Part shown: positions 46,907-53,391 of the stretch, piece by piece
How positions within the stretch are numbered: position 1 is the first letter of the stretch
How the letters are laid out: each line of letters starts with the position of its first letter
Assembly: GCF_012844225.1 (NCBI RefSeq)
Contig: NZ_JABAGQ010000007.1
Span: 124,001-188,000, forward strand
Direction of reading: 5' to 3'
Origin: Rhodococcus sp. 105337
GTDB lineage: Bacteria; Actinomycetota; Actinomycetes; Mycobacteriales; Mycobacteriaceae
DNA length: 64,000 nt
Made by a program: the position numbers and the translations under genes
Notes under the pieces: generated by a model
The model's database searches: none
Seen by the model: the letters and a program-made list of their open reading frames with translations, nothing else
Told to the model about the DNA's origin: nothing

Positions 46907-46992
46907 GCTCCGAATCTAGCGAGTGCGGGCGGGTTCGGCTCGGCCGGTGAGAGGATCACACGAACGTGTCGTCGCAAGCAGGAGGCCAGCCC

Positions 46993-47478
46993 GTGTCAGA
47001 GTCCGCGTCCCCAGACTCCCCCGATCCGCTGGGTGAACTGGCACCGTTCGCCGGTCGGTGGACCGGTGCGGGGGAAGGCCACTACCCCACCGTCGACGAC
47101 TTCGCCTACGTGGAGACGATCGAGCTGAATCCGTTGCCCGGCAAGCCTTTTCTGATGTATGTCAGCCGCACGAAACATCGCGACGACGGACGTCCGCTGC
47201 ACACCGAAAACGGCTACCTCCGGCGGTCGGGCGGCGACATCGAGTTTCTCGTCTCGCAGCCCACAGGCTTCGTCGAAATCCAGCGTTCTCAGCTGTCACA
47301 CGGGGTGCTCGACTTCACACCGGTGGTGTTCGAGCGGTCACCGGATGCGAAACCCGTCCGAGAGCTCAGGCGGAGGTTCGTACTCGACGGAGACACGCTG
47401 CGGTACGACCTCTGGATGGCACACGCCGACACTCCCCTCACCCACCATCTGCGCGCCGAGCTGCGGCGCGAGGGGTGA
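46993..47478 (+). CDS. Nitrobindin-type haem-binding beta-barrel protein (peroxynitrite isomerase family)
   Basis: A 161-residue ten-stranded beta-barrel of the nitrobindin family, which binds ferric haem and isomerises peroxynitrite to nitrate. The diagnostic GxWxGxGxGxYP motif is GRWTGAGEGHYP at residues 21-32. Near the C-terminus LTHHLRAELRRE supplies the likely haem-ligand histidine. The GTG at 46993 has GCAGGAGG 7 bases upstream. Its 3' part (from 47153) is duplicated at 51277, on the far side of the TcmP island; this is the intact copy. Confidence 0.9.
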   Translation: MSESASPDSPDPLGELAPFAGRWTGAGEGHYPTVDDFAYVETIELNPLPGKPFLMYVSRTKHRDDGRPLHTENGYLRRSGGDIEFLVSQPTGFVEIQRSQLSHGVLDFTPVVFERSPDAKPVRELRRRFVLDGDTLRYDLWMAHADTPLTHHLRAELRREG

Positions 47479-47509
47479 CGACCCGCCGGAAGTAGTCGTC
47501 GGACACCTG
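47153..47509. repeat. Left copy of the duplication flanking the island
   Basis: Bases 47153-47238 and 47392-47509 match 51277-51362 and 51360-51477 almost exactly, in direct orientation. It covers the 3' half of nitrobindin and the tail of a truncated SDR gene, whose antisense reads QVSDDYFRRV against the intact QAANDYFRRV. Confidence 0.85.
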
Positions 47510-47623
47510 TGATTCTCAGCGTGACGCCGCGCCGGCGTTCGAGCGACCAGAAACAGTTCAGCAATCGCGTCGTGGCCGACAACCTCGGTTTAGAAGAGAG
47601 TTGTGATTGGATTTGTCCTTTCA

Positions 47624-48820
47624 CTACACGGGCTCGATCAACAGGTTTAAGAGATCGTTCTTTCCTTTCGGATCTGTCGATGTTTTCCCAGCGGCCAGCA
47701 CTTTCTTGATCGCTGCTCGCAGATGGAGTGTTCGCACTACGCCGACTAGGTCTTCACCCAGTATTTCTTGCGGTCTGTCAATGATGCGGAACGCCTTGCC
47801 CCTTCCGAGCTCATTTATCAACCGATCCGCGATCGTGTCAACCCACTGAGCCTTGAGGCGCGCCTCTTCGGCCTTCCAATTGGCTTCCCAATCGCCGCCA
47901 AACAGAGTGCCGTCGGCAGCGATCTTCGCGTGATACTTTCGCCACTCCTGAAGTCCAAGCGATGCGGACTCACCGAATGCCAGCAGACCGTCAATATGAC
48001 GCGTAGCGAACACCAGGTAGTACACGGGCTTCAAATCGGCACGCGGACGCACATCAATGACCCAGGTGCCTGCGCCGCCGATTCTCTCTGCAAGCCGTTG
48101 GGCATACCCCTCAACGACGGCCTGCTCAGCCGCCGCCTTGTCGTCTTCTGAAGCTACCTTGTTGGGGCACTTGTCGAGCCACGCGTACCGCCACCAGTCG
48201 CCTCCACAAACGTCGTCAATCCGTTTCAGCGAGTTCTCGACAGGTTTGTCGCTGGTCAACATGCCCGCAAAACGACGCAGGTGCGCTGTGAGGTTAATCA
48301 GGACCTCGGTCGGTGCGTTGCTACCAGGGCGGTTGAAGATACTGACAACCTCATCCATCGGGATGATTAGGCCGCACGGGTCCAGGTAGGCGAACAGTGG
48401 GATGCCGTCGACCGCATCCAAAAGGGCAGGGAGGTGTGTTGAGACATCGCCGTCAGACACTGTGACGGTCAATCCTGAGCCCTCGTCGGCTACCACGCTC
48501 CGCAGCCTGGCAACGGTATCGGGGTCCTGCTCCACAAAGTGAAGCTCGGCCCTTCGGGCAGACCTCATCGCAGCCAAGTCATGCGCGGTCTTTAGAAGCA
48601 TGGCGCCGGAACCCTCGGCTCCATCATCGTATCGACCGGGCCCTGCGTACCCGTCGATGAAGGCAACCCGGTTGCCCGTAGAAGTACTGCCAGTTTTGCT
48701 CGCGAAGGGCATGGCGTACTGCTTGATGATGGCGTGCTTCAATACTGCCGCCGACTTCTTGCTCTTGTGAAACTGTTGACTCAATGCATGCCCCTGCCGA
48801 ATTTGGATCGAGGAGGCCAT
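47624..48820 (-). CDS. tcmP: Three-Cys-motif partner protein TcmP
   Basis: TcmP proteins are named for regularly occurring beside the three-Cys-motif (Gp37/Gp68) protein; no activity is established. This one is ~398 residues. The N-terminal half looks Rossmann/methyltransferase-like: KSAAVLKHAIIKQY, RVAFIDGYAGPGRYDDG (the family FIDxxAGPG motif), AELHFVEQDPDTVARL, IPLFAYLDPCGL and APTEVLINLTAHLRRFAG. The C-terminal half is helical and ends VRTLHLRAAIKKVLAAGKTST. The ATG at 48820 is used; TTG 48841 and GTG 48838 are in-frame alternatives and none has a strong ribosome-binding site. GC and codon use are unlike its neighbours. The partner gene lies 1.5 kb upstream beyond an IS remnant. Confidence 0.85.
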   Translation of the reverse strand: MASSIQIRQGHALSQQFHKSKKSAAVLKHAIIKQYAMPFASKTGSTSTGNRVAFIDGYAGPGRYDDGAEGSGAMLLKTAHDLAAMRSARRAELHFVEQDPDTVARLRSVVADEGSGLTVTVSDGDVSTHLPALLDAVDGIPLFAYLDPCGLIIPMDEVVSIFNRPGSNAPTEVLINLTAHLRRFAGMLTSDKPVENSLKRIDDVCGGDWWRYAWLDKCPNKVASEDDKAAAEQAVVEGYAQRLAERIGGAGTWVIDVRPRADLKPVYYLVFATRHIDGLLAFGESASLGLQEWRKYHAKIAADGTLFGGDWEANWKAEEARLKAQWVDTIADRLINELGRGKAFRIIDRPQEILGEDLVGVVRTLHLRAAIKKVLAAGKTSTDPKGKNDLLNLLIEPV

Positions 48821-48841
48821 GCTAATCGATTGAGTCACCAA

Positions 48842-49097
48842 CGTCTTGCAACTTCCGCCTTGGCTACCAATCGGGGTCGGGACGCTTGGTTCGATGTGAT
48901 GTGTATTTTAATTCCGGCCGCTGGAGCCTCGCGCTAGCGCTTCAATTCGTCGACGATGCTCGTAGTTCATCCGCGATCCCGATCTCGCGTTCCAACGGAG
49001 AGATACTAGGGCGCGGCAACAGCTGCCATCAAGGAGCAGGAGGGGTCAAGCCCGTGACGTGGTGTGCGAGGTCGTCGCGTGATTCCTCGTCGTCGGG
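48842..49097. other. Non-coding gap between tcmP and the IS remnant
   Basis: This 256-base stretch has no gene. It must hold any present-day tcmP promoter, and near 49030-49060 the GGGGTCAAGCCCGTGACGTGG-like segment may be a degraded IS terminus; this last point is a guess. Confidence 0.4.
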
Positions 49098-50211
49098 CTA
49101 TGCAGTTAACGCCGGTGTCACCTCCTCCGTCGGTTCGGTGACGGTCTCAGCAGGCTGGTTGTTGCTGCGGGAACGGGCGAGGACATCGAGTGCGAGATAG
49201 CGAGGTTTCGATCCGCTCGTCGCGCTGCTCGGCGAGCACCGCTCCGACCAGCCGGATCAATGCGGTCCGATCGGGAAAGTTCCCGACGCCGTCGGTGCGG
49301 CGCCGGATCTCCTTGTTCAGCCGCTCCTGCGGATTGTTGGACCAGATCTGTCGCCAGATCTGATTCGGAAACGCGTTGAATGCAGCAGATCTGCTCGCGC
49401 TGCGTCAAGATGTTCTGCGACTTTGGGCAGTTCGTCTCCAGGACGTCGATCACCCGTCGTATTGCGTGAACGGGGTCGGCGTCGGTTGGTCCTCGACCGA
49501 ATGCAGCAGCGTCTTCACCCAAGGCAACGATGATTTCAGGGTCAGTGCCATCAGCCGGTCGAATAGTGCGTCCGGCATCGCTGACACGATGCGCCGGGCA
49601 GGGTCACGCCGACCGCGGGCACCAGGCGGGCATGCGCGTCGGAGGTCACCAACTGCACCCCCGGACAGGCCTCGGGCGACCAGTCCACGGAAGAAACCCA
49701 GCCAGCCGGTGCTGTCCTCGGCGGAGGTGAACTCGACATCCAGGATCTCACGGTTACCCTCGGCGTTGACGCCGACCTGCTCATCCAACTCTTTCGCCAT
49801 GACGCGGACCTCCGACGTCGACAGCGAAGCCATCCCGGGAGTGTCGACGAGTTACTCCCTTCGCGGGTGGACACCCCGCGCAGATAGCATGTGGCGACCA
49901 CCGAGGCCAGGGCCCTTCGGCCCGTCTGCGCCGTTGTAGCAACCAGTCGGAGAATACGATTCTTGCCGCAGTTTGGGGATCGCGACATCGAGGGTGCCAA
50001 CTCTCGTATCGGAGCCCCGGTGCCGGTAATCGATGCTGACGTGACGCGTTCGTCACGACGCCGACCGAAGTCGGCGCCGCACAGGGTCGGCTTCGGCGCT
50101 CATCAGGGCGTCGATAAACGTCGACAGCAGGTCGCGCATAGGTCGGGGCTGGCGCCGGTCAGTGAGGTCTTCGACAAGGGGGCGCAGGTCGATATCGTGA
50201 GTAGTGGTCAT
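49098..50211 (-). pseudogene. Decayed IS256-family (mutator) transposase
   Basis: An IS256 transposase broken by several frameshifts and deletions. Readable pieces in order: MTTTHDIDLRPLVEDLTDR and LLSTFIDALMSAEADPV (start ATG at 50211), DVAIPKLRQESY, LSTSEVRVMAKELDEQV, GVNAEGNREILDVEFTSAEDS, FFRGLVARGLSG, VQLVTSDAHARLVPAVG, SSLPWVKTLLHSV, then [31 protein letters not shown] and [12 protein letters not shown], ending at the TAG at 49098. The catalytic DDE set cannot be complete because a segment after KELDEQV is missing. It lies between the two island genes in the same orientation and is certainly inactive. Confidence 0.9.
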
Positions 50212-50318
50212 CGCGTGGCCCTGTCCCGAGTGACTTTGGGCGGTCTCTTCGAGAATCACGCTGAACCGCCCCAGATCGAGTGGGGACCTCGTTCAGACCA
50301 CCTCAATGCCAAGTTTTT

Positions 50319-51065
50319 CTAGGCGCTCATTTGATTGGGCATCTCGTTCCAGAGTTGCCCATCAAGCTGTCGTCCTAACGCCTTGGGTGTGCGGCCACCC
50401 CACTGCTTGAAGAAGAACGGGACGTCGGCCGATGTGCAAATGTCTCTGATACCACGAGCCCACGACAACTCCATCGGTCTGTAGTTCGGACCCGACTCGC
50501 CGCCGGCAATGACCCATCCAATGCCGTTGAGGTTGATGCCATCTAGCGGACCGAGCAATGGCTCGCAGGATAGGAAGCGGACCGTGGCAGGGACTTCGCG
50601 GAGGTGGTCAACTCGATTGAGCACGCTGTTGTCCTCGACCGAGACCCCCATCCACACGTTGTTGGGCCAGTCGAGCTTGTCCGCGATGCGCGCCAGTCGG
50701 AGCGACCTCTTTGTTAGCACCTGATACGTGTGCTGAGGAGTGTCAATCATGACGTCAAATACGTCACGAATGAACCCGATCGGGACTTGCGCGTGGAAGA
50801 GGTCGCTCATTGAGTTAACGAACACCACGCGCGGATTTCTCCATCGATACGGCTGGTCAAGCGACTGCGGATGGACCGTGACACCGAAGCCCGGACCGGA
50901 CGTAATCGGATTGCCGTCGTTCTGGTACTTGTCGGCACCCATAGCCTTCAAACGCTTCGCGAGAGTCAGTGCGTAACAGTGGTCACACCCCGCGGAGACT
51001 CGATCGCATCCCGTGACAGGGTTCCACGTCGCTTCGGTCCACTCGATCGCCGAGTTGTCAGCCAT
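50319..51065 (-). CDS. Three-Cys-motif phage Gp37/Gp68 family protein (DUF5131/PF07505)
   Basis: A 248-residue protein of the phage Gp37/Gp68 family. The defining N-terminal motif is IEWTEATWNPVTGC followed by C-x7-C-x2-C (TGCDRVSAGCDHCYA), suggesting a metal or iron-sulfur site reminiscent of radical-SAM proteins, though not the canonical CxxxCxxC. Later conserved segments are RVVFVNSMSDLFH, TYQVLTKRSLRL, VWMGVSVEDN, FLSCEPLLGPL, WVIAGGESGPNYRPM and VPFFFKQWGG. The ATG at 51065 is used, with GTG at 51074 as an alternative. It is the usual partner of TcmP. An SOS-like site lies 17-32 bases before the ATG. Function is unknown; a nucleic-acid role is possible. Confidence 0.9.
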   Translation of the reverse strand: MADNSAIEWTEATWNPVTGCDRVSAGCDHCYALTLAKRLKAMGADKYQNDGNPITSGPGFGVTVHPQSLDQPYRWRNPRVVFVNSMSDLFHAQVPIGFIRDVFDVMIDTPQHTYQVLTKRSLRLARIADKLDWPNNVWMGVSVEDNSVLNRVDHLREVPATVRFLSCEPLLGPLDGINLNGIGWVIAGGESGPNYRPMELSWARGIRDICTSADVPFFFKQWGGRTPKALGRQLDGQLWNEMPNQMSA

Positions 51066-51081
51066 AACTCCCACTAATCAA

Positions 51082-51110
51082 CCGAATATTTGTTCGAACG
51101 ATGGTCGTTC
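51082..51110 (-). promoter_or_regulatory. LexA/SOS-box-like site with overlapping palindrome
   Basis: CCGAAT-attt-GTTCGA at 51082-51097 matches the actinobacterial LexA box TCGAAC-N4-GTTCGA at 10 of 12 positions. Overlapping it, GAACGA-tgg-TCGTTC (51096-51110) is a perfect inverted repeat. Both lie just upstream of the three-Cys gene start, where a repressor would block transcription. Confidence 0.65.
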
Positions 51111-51275
51111 TATCGCACACTACTAGGTCATCCTTCGTCAAGTGCCCTCGGTCAAGAACGCCGGAGACCTCTGTGTCAACAGCAACTGAATTTTGGTTTC
51201 GCCCAAGACCCTTTGGGCGGGCCTTATGTGGGATAAGTGCACCGCTCCACGCACTTGTCTAACCTTCAACCGCGA

Positions 51276-51446
51276 ATGATGTACGTCAGCCGCACGAAAC
51301 ATCGCGACGACGGACGTCCGCTGCACACCGAAAACGGCTACCTCCGGCGGTCGTGCGGCGACACCCTTCGGTACGACCTCTGGATGGCTCACGCCGACAC
51401 TCCCCTCACCCACCATCTGCGCGCCGAGCTGCGGCGCGAGGGGTGA
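51276..51446 (+). pseudogene. Nitrobindin 3' fragment
   Basis: An ATG-started remnant reading MMYVSRTKHRDDGRPLHTENG, then RYDLWMAHADTPLTHH and the same C-terminus as the gene at 46993. It lacks the GxWxGxGxGxYP haem motif and 52 internal codons, so it cannot fold as nitrobindin. It overlaps the SDR 3' end by 41 bases, probably the ancestral convergent overlap. Confidence 0.85.
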
Positions 51447-51477
51447 CGACCCGCCGGAAGTAGTCGTTGGCCGCCTG
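51277..51477. repeat. Right copy of the duplication flanking the island
   Basis: Direct repeat of 47153-47509 with a 156-base internal deletion (bases equivalent to 47238-47392) and a handful of substitutions. Its SDR part belongs to the intact SDR gene. Confidence 0.85.
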
Positions 51478-52281
51478 CATGACCAGGTTGTAGGGGGCCG
51501 CGAACTTACGGGCCCACCAGTATCCGAATCGCGTGTCGAACGAGGTGTAGACGAGGAACCGGTTCTTCTTGATACCGGTGACGATGCACGCGGCCACCTT
51601 CTCGGGCGAGGCCGCGTGCTTGACGAAGCGTTGCGTGATCTTCCGGACCTCGGGACGGTCGCGATCGACACCCACGATCTGGACGCTGTCGACCAGAGGT
51701 GTGCGCACCGCGCCCGGGACCACGAGAGACACACCGATCCCGTTGCGCTTGAGGTCGAACCGCAGCACCTCCGACACCCCGCGCAGCCCGAATTTGCTCG
51801 CGCTGTACGCGGAATGCCACGGCAGCGCGAGCAGTCCGGCGGCGGAGGAGACGTTGACGAGATGCCCGCCCCGTCCAGCTTCCATCATCGGCGGCACGAA
51901 GCTCTCGATCACGTGGATGGGACCCATGAGATTGACGTCCACCATCAATTTCCAGTGCTTGTGCTCGAGCCGGTCGACGGTCCCCCACACGGACACCCCC
52001 GCCACGTTGGCGACGATGTCGAGCGCTCCGCACCGCGAGTGGACGTCGTCCGCGAAAGCGGCCACCGCGTCGTAATCCGCGATGTCGAGCGCAGCCGAAT
52101 GAAGTACGACGCCTCCGTCGTCCCTGACCTGCCGGACCACTGCTTCGAGGCCGTCCGCGGCCACGTCGGTGAGGACGAGTTCGGCTCCCTCACCGGCGGC
52201 GTGGAGTGCCAGGGCGCGCCCGATTCCGCTCGCTGCGCCGGTTACCAGAAACTTGGTGCCGCGCAGGTCCTTGATCGCCAT
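51406..52281 (-). CDS. Short-chain dehydrogenase/reductase (SDR)
   Basis: A 291-residue classical SDR. The cofactor motif TGAASGIG is at residues ~14-21, the NNAG-like motif is VANVAGVS, and the catalytic set is S (NVSSAAGL) with YSASK (HSAYSASKFGLRG), followed by PGAVRTPL. The C-terminus (KFAAPYNLVMQAANDYFRRVV) is longer than minimal SDRs. Substrate unknown. The ATG at 52281 is the start. Its 3' end marks the right edge of the island, and its truncated duplicate lies at the left edge. Confidence 0.9.
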   Translation of the reverse strand: MAIKDLRGTKFLVTGAASGIGRALALHAAGEGAELVLTDVAADGLEAVVRQVRDDGGVVLHSAALDIADYDAVAAFADDVHSRCGALDIVANVAGVSVWGTVDRLEHKHWKLMVDVNLMGPIHVIESFVPPMMEAGRGGHLVNVSSAAGLLALPWHSAYSASKFGLRGVSEVLRFDLKRNGIGVSLVVPGAVRTPLVDSVQIVGVDRDRPEVRKITQRFVKHAASPEKVAACIVTGIKKNRFLVYTSFDTRFGYWWARKFAAPYNLVMQAANDYFRRVVTPRAAARRADGG

Positions 52282-53315: not shown

Positions 53316-53391
53316 TGGTGGAGCTGAGGGGAATCGAACCCCTGACCTCTTCGATGCGAACGAAGCGCGCTACCAACTGCGCCACAGCCCC
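53316..53391 (-). tRNA. tRNA-Ala (anticodon CGC)
   Basis: The minus strand folds into a full cloverleaf: acceptor GGGGCTG/CAGCTCC, D arm GCGC-AGTTGGTA-GCGC, anticodon stem CTTCG/CGAAG with loop TTCGCAT (anticodon CGC, reading GCG Ala), T arm AGGGG-TTCGAAT-CCCCT, discriminator A73 and an encoded CCA. 76 bases including CCA. It has its own terminator. Confidence 0.96.

Follow-up and report, generated by a model that had tools for sequence, protein, structure and literature searches.

A pair of genes encoding TcmP and a DUF5131 (Gp37/Gp68) protein, inserted as a foreign block in the genome of Rhodococcus sp. 105337, could be a mobile and partly damage-linked nucleic-acid-modifying conflict module, probably anti-phage, with exchangeable target recognition; this is the reading we prefer, and we hold it tentatively. 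The pair lies in a 64,000-nt stretch of DNA (contig NZ_JABAGQ010000007.1, positions 124,001 to 188,000; G000:C32:124001-188000 in our survey; hereafter the window) of a 4.46 Mb genome. The pair, a defence candidate, occurs across many phyla as well as on plasmids and in phages, and no mechanism for it was proposed in the literature searched. New here are the kinship of TcmP with the rRNA methyltransferase RlmJ, a partner slot probably occupied by radical S-adenosylmethionine (SAM) enzymes, and what looks like exchange of TcmP as a cassette, which make an open family directly testable.

TcmP is related to RlmJ

A preliminary description of this DNA, made from the sequence alone, had called TcmP methyltransferase-like, and profile comparison agreed. 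A profile of 64 TcmPs searched against the PDB matched RlmJ at E 4e-5, and hhalign of TcmP against three RlmJ relatives gave 97% with E 1e-10 over 123 columns. TcmP shares with RlmJ, the 23S rRNA m6A2030 methyltransferase, an N-terminal VLKH helix, an AGxGRY motif I (FIDGYAGPGRY in the window), GSP, E and the DP of motif IV (DPCG in the window). K35 of TcmP, the VLKH lysine, and D154, the motif IV aspartate, correspond in the alignment to the catalytic residues K18 and D164 of Escherichia coli RlmJ, both described as essential in the available text of PMC3814359. This Lys/Asp pair is common to both families, with lysine present at position 35 in 102 of 104 TcmPs and aspartate at position 154 in all 104. 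By homology, TcmP is a diverged RlmJ-type class I SAM methyltransferase that has kept the catalytic Lys and Asp, and its activity is predicted from that kinship.

TcmP differs from RlmJ in motif IV, where RlmJ's DPP(Y/F) is not kept and DP(F/Y/C)G stands instead (with F or Y at position 156 in 64/104 and C in 14/104, and G at position 157 in 84/104), in lacking RlmJ's helical insert, and in having a partner gene, a C-terminal extension and mobility. The winged helix domain GMT-wHTH was found in 20 of the 64 TcmPs and not in the window protein, in whose C-terminal part a winged helix is suggested by eye alone; nor did the window TcmP match any Pfam family. A control search of E. coli returned a TIGR04474 match below cut-off, which may be RlmJ.

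DUF5131 is probably a radical-SAM enzyme

The cysteines of the window's DUF5131 protein, previously given a C-x7-C-x2-C spacing, lie at C23, C30 and C33 and thus read C-x6-C-x2-C. All three are kept in 69/69 and in 104/104 members, and in 161/167 by pattern. The protein matched the rSAM_mob_pairA model (TIGR04471) at E 2.7e-17 and 63 bits, below the cut-off of 355; the same model was matched by all 69 DUF5131 members and mob_pairB (TIGR04470) by 15, with scores below the curated cut-offs.

Loci in which TcmP has no clear DUF5131 neighbour gave further evidence. From the 12 survey genomes with TcmP only we examined six, together with G145, leaving out five with weak or cut-off matches and G083. 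The adjacent frame was weakly DUF5131-like in 7/7 (E 2.5e-4 to 0.07, filters off), and a GC-x3-C motif was present in the adjacent frames of these seven loci. Five of the seven partners were scanned: all five matched the PA0069 and mob_pairB radical-SAM models, four matched Rv2578c and two, weakly, spore photoproduct lyase (SPL). Because a related radical-SAM protein adjoins TcmP where DUF5131 is missing (7/7 examined), DUF5131 itself is probably an SPL-type radical-SAM enzyme. Proteins of the SPL/PA0069/Rv2578c and rSAM_mob_pairA/B types appear to substitute for DUF5131 beside TcmP; DUF5131 differs from them in its cysteine spacing and in scoring under their curated cut-offs.

The loci with a PA0069/SPL-type protein in place of DUF5131 are L241, L242, L243, L247, L248, L250 and L256, and such a pairing with TcmP was not found in the literature searched. 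Mycobacteriophage LeBron gp68, considered as a DUF5131 relative, was rejected as a WhiB protein.

The pair stays linked while TcmP appears to be exchanged

Co-occurrence of the two genes across genomes, proposed in the preliminary description, was borne out by a phylum survey of 396 genomes, in which DUF5131 was found in 43, TcmP in 41 and both in 29 (odds ratio 59, Fisher p=4.6e-24). In a class survey of 394 genomes DUF5131 was present in 30, with TcmP within ~1.5 kb in 16 of the 24 loci read and, in one of the other eight (G211, L268), 1.7 kb away. We then took the best 80 loci listed from a scan of species genomes with DUF5131 alignment A1: TcmP lay within 2.5 kb of DUF5131 in 69, was absent in 8, and 3 loci were cut off near DUF5131. 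The 69 linked loci comprised 29 with TcmP before DUF5131, 24 convergent, 15 with DUF5131 before TcmP and 1 divergent. A quickly built tree of 157 rows, with 62/154 inner branches weak, required 21 changes for TcmP presence, compared to 42 in shuffles (made for presence only), and about 20 for layout, one of them added by the window's own layout label. The pair remains linked across many layout changes. It was found on plasmids, in phages and in chromosomal islands, which together with the empty insertion site described below upholds the earlier view of it as recurrent and mobile.

Within this linkage the two proteins diverge very differently. Among locus pairs with DUF5131 80–85% identical (n=45), TcmP identity had a median of 22% (16–81), and among those with DUF5131 at least 85% identical (n=16) the median was 30% (18–81); Mycobacterium sp. 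E740 and Mycolicibacterium agri (L011/L012) share 93% identity in DUF5131 and 20% in TcmP. We compared the DNA of ten locus pairs of our own choosing, mostly with high DUF5131 and low TcmP identity, and found that similarity covers DUF5131 and ends at its 3' end in nine, continuing through TcmP in L012/L014. TcmP looks like a specificity part exchanged as a cassette while DUF5131 is kept. A deep split between TcmP types could mimic this in the distant pairs but not in those at 85–93% DUF5131 identity.

Defence neighbourhoods and the self-protection alternative

The preliminary description had proposed checking the pair for enrichment in defence islands, and restriction and defence genes do stand near it. 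In 13 survey stretches, 294 PADLOC models were matched at 1e-10 by 117 neighbours versus 14 by 142 control proteins, counts that refer to models and not proteins and include many redundant type I restriction-modification models. Controls were 13 stretches of the same contigs (142 of 150 proteins, the eight of L283 being left out); L264 (no DUF5131 call) and L271-L275 (no controls) were left out of the neighbourhood set. Restriction or helicase genes occurred in 5/13 stretches. Pfam matches among ten large neighbours, chosen by size, were HsdR (L257, L270), a restriction/SNF2-type helicase (L260, L265) and an Eco57I-type methylase (L267), and a restriction match was absent in 5 of these 10 (neighbours only). 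On the plasmid of Rhodococcus sp. USK13, Wadjet-type genes are found at 2 kb from the pair set; in Rhodococcus ruber the pair adjoins a DUF262 gene and a methylase of EcoRI type; and in Gordonia phage Fairfaxidum the pair sits between integrase and immunity repressor, in the lysogeny cassette.

NCBIfam already has a name for the 'three-Cys-motif' pairing, and both proteins appear in PADLOC as candidates for phage defence, PDC-M30 and PDC-M41. The window proteins matched the B component of these at E 1.8e-105/2.7e-110 and the A component at E 9.2e-9/2.3e-6, without cut-offs. In the available text of PMC10855318 the two candidates come from 'guilt-by-embedding', and PDC-M30 occurs in 32/100 P. 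aeruginosa strains, 68.8% of which are phage resistant. The window shares with this TIGR04474/PF07505 pair both proteins, linked genes and the defence-candidate listing; it differs in that its genes lie on the same strand, 1.5 kb apart with insertion sequence (IS) debris between them, and in that two TcmPs accompany a single DUF5131 in its nearest relative.

The pair might instead protect the element that carries it, hypermodifying the DNA of a plasmid or phage and so blocking host restriction. Its carriage by plasmids and phages fits this explanation, as does the more frequent presence of a DNA methyltransferase-like gene, named by eye, near phage DUF5131 genes that lack TcmP (14/41 viral loci without TcmP versus 3/32 with TcmP, p=0.024). 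We nevertheless find self-protection doubtful: pairs also lie in chromosomal islands beside restriction genes, the Fairfaxidum pair stands beside the repressor, where the lysogeny cassette usually holds exclusion genes, and fast exchange of TcmP would be less expected.

The insert, its boundaries and the gap between the genes

The block had been described as a lower-GC island in a conserved neighbourhood, and both parts of that description stand. G+C content is ~0.55–0.60 over TcmP and DUF5131, 0.59–0.65 in the gap between them and ~0.62–0.72 in the flanks (42–58 kb). The limits first given to it, 47510-51276, are exactly those of the space between direct repeats, which form two pairs: 47388-47509/51356-51477 (122 nt, 94% identity) and 47153-47239/51277-51363 (87 nt, 98% identity). 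The repeats represent the place where a peroxynitrite-isomerase-like gene meets an SDR gene, and a partial copy of this junction flanks the insert on either side (Table 1). Of the 15 same-genus loci compared (L092-L106), 13 have these two genes as uninterrupted convergent neighbours; in the other two (L101, L102) the isomerase gene was not found within the stretch examined. Neither TcmP nor DUF5131 was found in any same-genus relative (0/17); among 41 genomes (own plus 40 relatives) TcmP occurred in the source genome and one same-order genome, and DUF5131 in the source genome, besides a match of 29 residues in one same-order genome.

Table 1. Features of the insert and its surroundings in window coordinates, with the viral loci of the long DUF5131 clade.
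Feature	Position	Strand	Remarks
Peroxynitrite-isomerase-like gene, intact	46966-47478		NCBIfam PeroxynitIsom 165.9 bits, below cut-off 225
Left junction copy	47153..47509	+	Isomerase-like gene 3' end and ~31 nt of SDR 3' end; direct repeats
TcmP, 405 aa, TTG start, complete frame	47624-48841	-	TIGR04474 121.7 bits, cut-off 53
Stretch unlike USK13 DNA	48856..50337	.	blastn/tblastn of window vs L005; USK13 has a second, convergent TcmP at this place
Broken IS256/IS1164-like insertion sequence	49036-50261	-	Transposase_mut in two frames, transpos_IS256
DUF5131 (Gp37/Gp68), 251 aa, complete frame	50319-51074	-	PF07505 340.7 bits, cut-off 28.9, E 5.9e-102
LexA-box-like TCGAACAAATATTCGG	51082..51097	-	2 mismatches to TCGAAC-N4-GTTCGA, ~32 nt before likely DUF5131 ATG
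Right junction copy, partial	51277..51477	+	148 nt missing inside; runs into SDR gene
SDR gene	51406-52281	-	
Actinophage-like long DUF5131 clade	L120, L126, L133, L152, L176, L185, L187, L193, L195, L196, others		Viral loci

The insert probably arrived at the isomerase/SDR junction via homologous recombination. We favour this over transposition because the flanking repeats, ~0.2–0.36 kb of chromosomal sequence, are far longer than a transposase target duplication would be, and a plain transposon insertion was rejected on this ground. Recombination between the left and right junction copies could delete the insert. The sole tRNA of the window, tRNA-Ala (anticodon cgc, 53316-53391), lies 2 kb from the insert and shows no sign of having served as its insertion site. 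A scan of the insert for sigma-70 promoters and terminators gave one promoter-like and one terminator-like site, at or below the counts in shuffles, and these were dropped.

The two genes had been called the only complete cargo of the block. Both frames are indeed complete, and the 1,477 nt that separate them on the same strand hold a broken IS256/IS1164-like element that had been overlooked. Its transposase is split into pieces in different frames; the gap matches a stretch of a Rhodococcus plasmid at 84% DNA identity over 83% of its length, other matches carry an IS1164-family annotation, and the source genome holds one full-length copy of the element. A search for the origin of positions 48842-49060 gave no match among plasmids.

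The nearest relative found is the USK13 plasmid (L005), whose DUF5131 and TcmP are 84% and 81% identical to those of the window. The order there is DUF5131, a convergent TcmP overlapping DUF5131 by 4 nt, and then the counterpart of the window's TcmP. Similarity between window and USK13 DNA ends at 50338 and restarts at 48855, and blastn and tblastn against the USK13 plasmid found no trace of the second, convergent TcmP in the window. The window pair may be what is left of an arrangement of three genes, one DUF5131 and two TcmPs, an ancestor that may be envisaged from USK13, and the IS256 debris would later have come to occupy the place of the possible second TcmP. The earlier notion of a two-gene module holds for the linkage of the pair and may need qualifying for the window, the pair moreover being one already named by NCBIfam and listed by PADLOC.

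This history raises the question of whether the copy in the source genome is a relic in which the true partner TcmP was lost to the IS256 element and the genes that are left have ceased to cooperate. The IS debris sits at the place of USK13's convergent TcmP and one flanking repeat is partly deleted, as a relic would predict, and the source genome's copy may be impaired. A relic is nonetheless unlikely: both frames are complete and keep all family-invariant residues, the identities to the USK13 proteins look as if selected, and the ancestral second TcmP is itself conjectural.

Two TcmPs were present in 2 of the 104 loci having a TcmP longer than 200 aa (L005, L020). Sinorhizobium meliloti pSymA (L334 14221-19882) carries in succession one DUF5131, a pair of TcmPs in opposite orientations and a frame of 845 aa. 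A table in the available part of PMC12445080 assigns SMa2245, the phage-defence gene Hna, and SMa2243, the TcmP that follows it, to a single putative operon. The 845-aa frame is therefore probably Hna, a name taken from that table; the pSymA record carries no annotation. A search for an alphaproteobacterial SOS box upstream of the pSymA genes found none there.

LexA-type boxes and the damage-response alternative

A sequence resembling the LexA-type box TCGAAC-N4-GTTCGA occurs before DUF5131 in some actinobacterial loci. With at most one mismatch it was found in 10/47 Actinomycetota DUF5131 loci versus 0/462 other frames (p 1.8e-11), and with at most two in 15/47 versus 5/462. It agrees with the Streptomyces venezuelae LexA motif tCGAAC-N4-GNNCGa given in the available text of PMC9380542. 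A class replication set gave 1/24 DUF5131 loci versus 1/161 controls at one mismatch or fewer and 5/24 versus 1/161 at two (p 1.4e-4), and a phylum replication set gave 4/28 versus 4/136 at two (p 0.03); no excess was found in viral loci or other phyla. The window's own box stands at the position of the perfect USK13 box, and the nearest relatives have boxes with 0–1 mismatches at -24 to -42. Since the 64 kb window holds 14 two-mismatch boxes, one is expected in ~3.5% of cases per 160 nt, and the window box could be chance. In four genomes (L320, L322, L323, L324) a palindrome, TCGCACATATGTGCGA/G, lies ~54 nt before DUF5131 and is perhaps another operator.

These boxes are relevant to the suggestion in the preliminary description that the pair serves defence, DNA repair or nucleic-acid modification. 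The restriction and defence neighbours, the methyltransferase-like protein and, indirectly, the radical-SAM-like protein speak for that range of functions, and the boxes also allow a damage response, in which DUF5131 would reverse or process a lesion as SPL does and TcmP would recognise the lesion or strand. Pointing the same way are the boxes in a minority of actinobacterial loci, the weak SPL matches of two of the five alternative partners and, as a possible parallel, the radical SAM protein gene vnz_31145, induced 20-fold by mitomycin C in S. venezuelae according to the available text of PMC9380542. We regard a damage response as rather unlikely, because house-keeping repair would not lead one to expect sporadic presence, partner exchange and defence neighbours, and because the boxes replicate unevenly.

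DUF5131 in phages

In the best 80 viral loci listed with DUF5131, TcmP lay within 2.5 kb in 32, was absent in 41, and 7 loci were cut off near DUF5131. Across the genomic and viral loci combined, long forms of DUF5131 (270 aa or more) lacked TcmP in 24/26 cases and short forms had it in 106/131 (p 1e-12). An actinophage-like clade of such longer DUF5131 proteins, without TcmP, often lies near DNA methyltransferase-like genes (Table 1). These lone phage genes, often long, and the failure to see TcmP without a radical-SAM partner in the seven loci examined could suit a toxin-antidote pair, in which the variable TcmP would be a nucleic-acid-modifying toxin, the conserved DUF5131 would undo the modification and phages would keep DUF5131 alone as antidote, but two TcmPs stand beside one DUF5131 in USK13 and pSymA, and we consider this improbable.

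Proposed mechanism

Under the conflict-module reading that we prefer, the C-terminal part of TcmP, binding DNA or RNA, would choose the target, and TcmP would bind and methylate, or at least present, a base in foreign DNA or RNA. DUF5131 would next alter the same site by radical chemistry, blocking the phage or other element. TcmP, serving for recognition, would evolve and be swapped, the radical enzyme would stay, and DUF5131 would in some actinobacteria additionally be under LexA-type control. A narrower version, nuclease-free restriction-like immunity, is possible although we would not lean on it: here foreign nucleic acid would be found by a swappable RlmJ-type methyltransferase and disabled through the chemistry of a shared SPL-type radical-SAM enzyme, with DUF5131 or a PA0069-type protein in the enzyme slot and the specificity cassette swapped at the DUF5131 3' end.

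Several results weigh against the conflict-module reading. TcmP is without RlmJ's PP(Y/F), and methylation may consequently be lost. For DUF5131, the radical SAM family PF04055 was matched by 0/69 members at E up to 1, hhalign against a Rv2578c radical-SAM alignment gave 12% with shallow alignments, neither single-sequence nor profile search found a meaningful relative of solved structure, and the radical-SAM motif C-x3-C-x2-C is not present, although variant Cys spacings occur in the radical SAM superfamily. Replication of the LexA-type box is uneven across sets, the phylum set giving 0/28 DUF5131 loci versus 0/136 controls at one mismatch or fewer, and a box upstream of TcmP was rejected (1/47 at two mismatches or fewer). 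In 48 of the best 80 viral loci there is no nearby TcmP or the locus is cut off, the redundancy of the PADLOC models adds to this side, and the literature searched held nothing on function, activity, substrate or phage phenotype, naming TcmP in tables only.

Type I restriction-modification with embedded genes is alike in swapping a recognition subunit and in residing in islands, and unlike in that hsdS is no enzyme. Viperins bring radical-SAM chemistry to immunity, as is proposed for the pair; their products are nucleotide analogues, and they lack a methyltransferase partner. To our knowledge viperin is the only known relative for a radical-chemistry effector in immunity, and if radical chemistry acts on nucleic acid here, the kind of effector would be related only to it. 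The kinship with RlmJ indicates which TcmP residues to mutate and the radical-SAM partner slot which chemistry to assay, and the exchange of cassettes points to TcmP as the recognition part. As a minor observation on the family, Salinispora vitiensis (L026 1954-2736, 7842-8759) carries two DUF5131 genes 5 kb apart.

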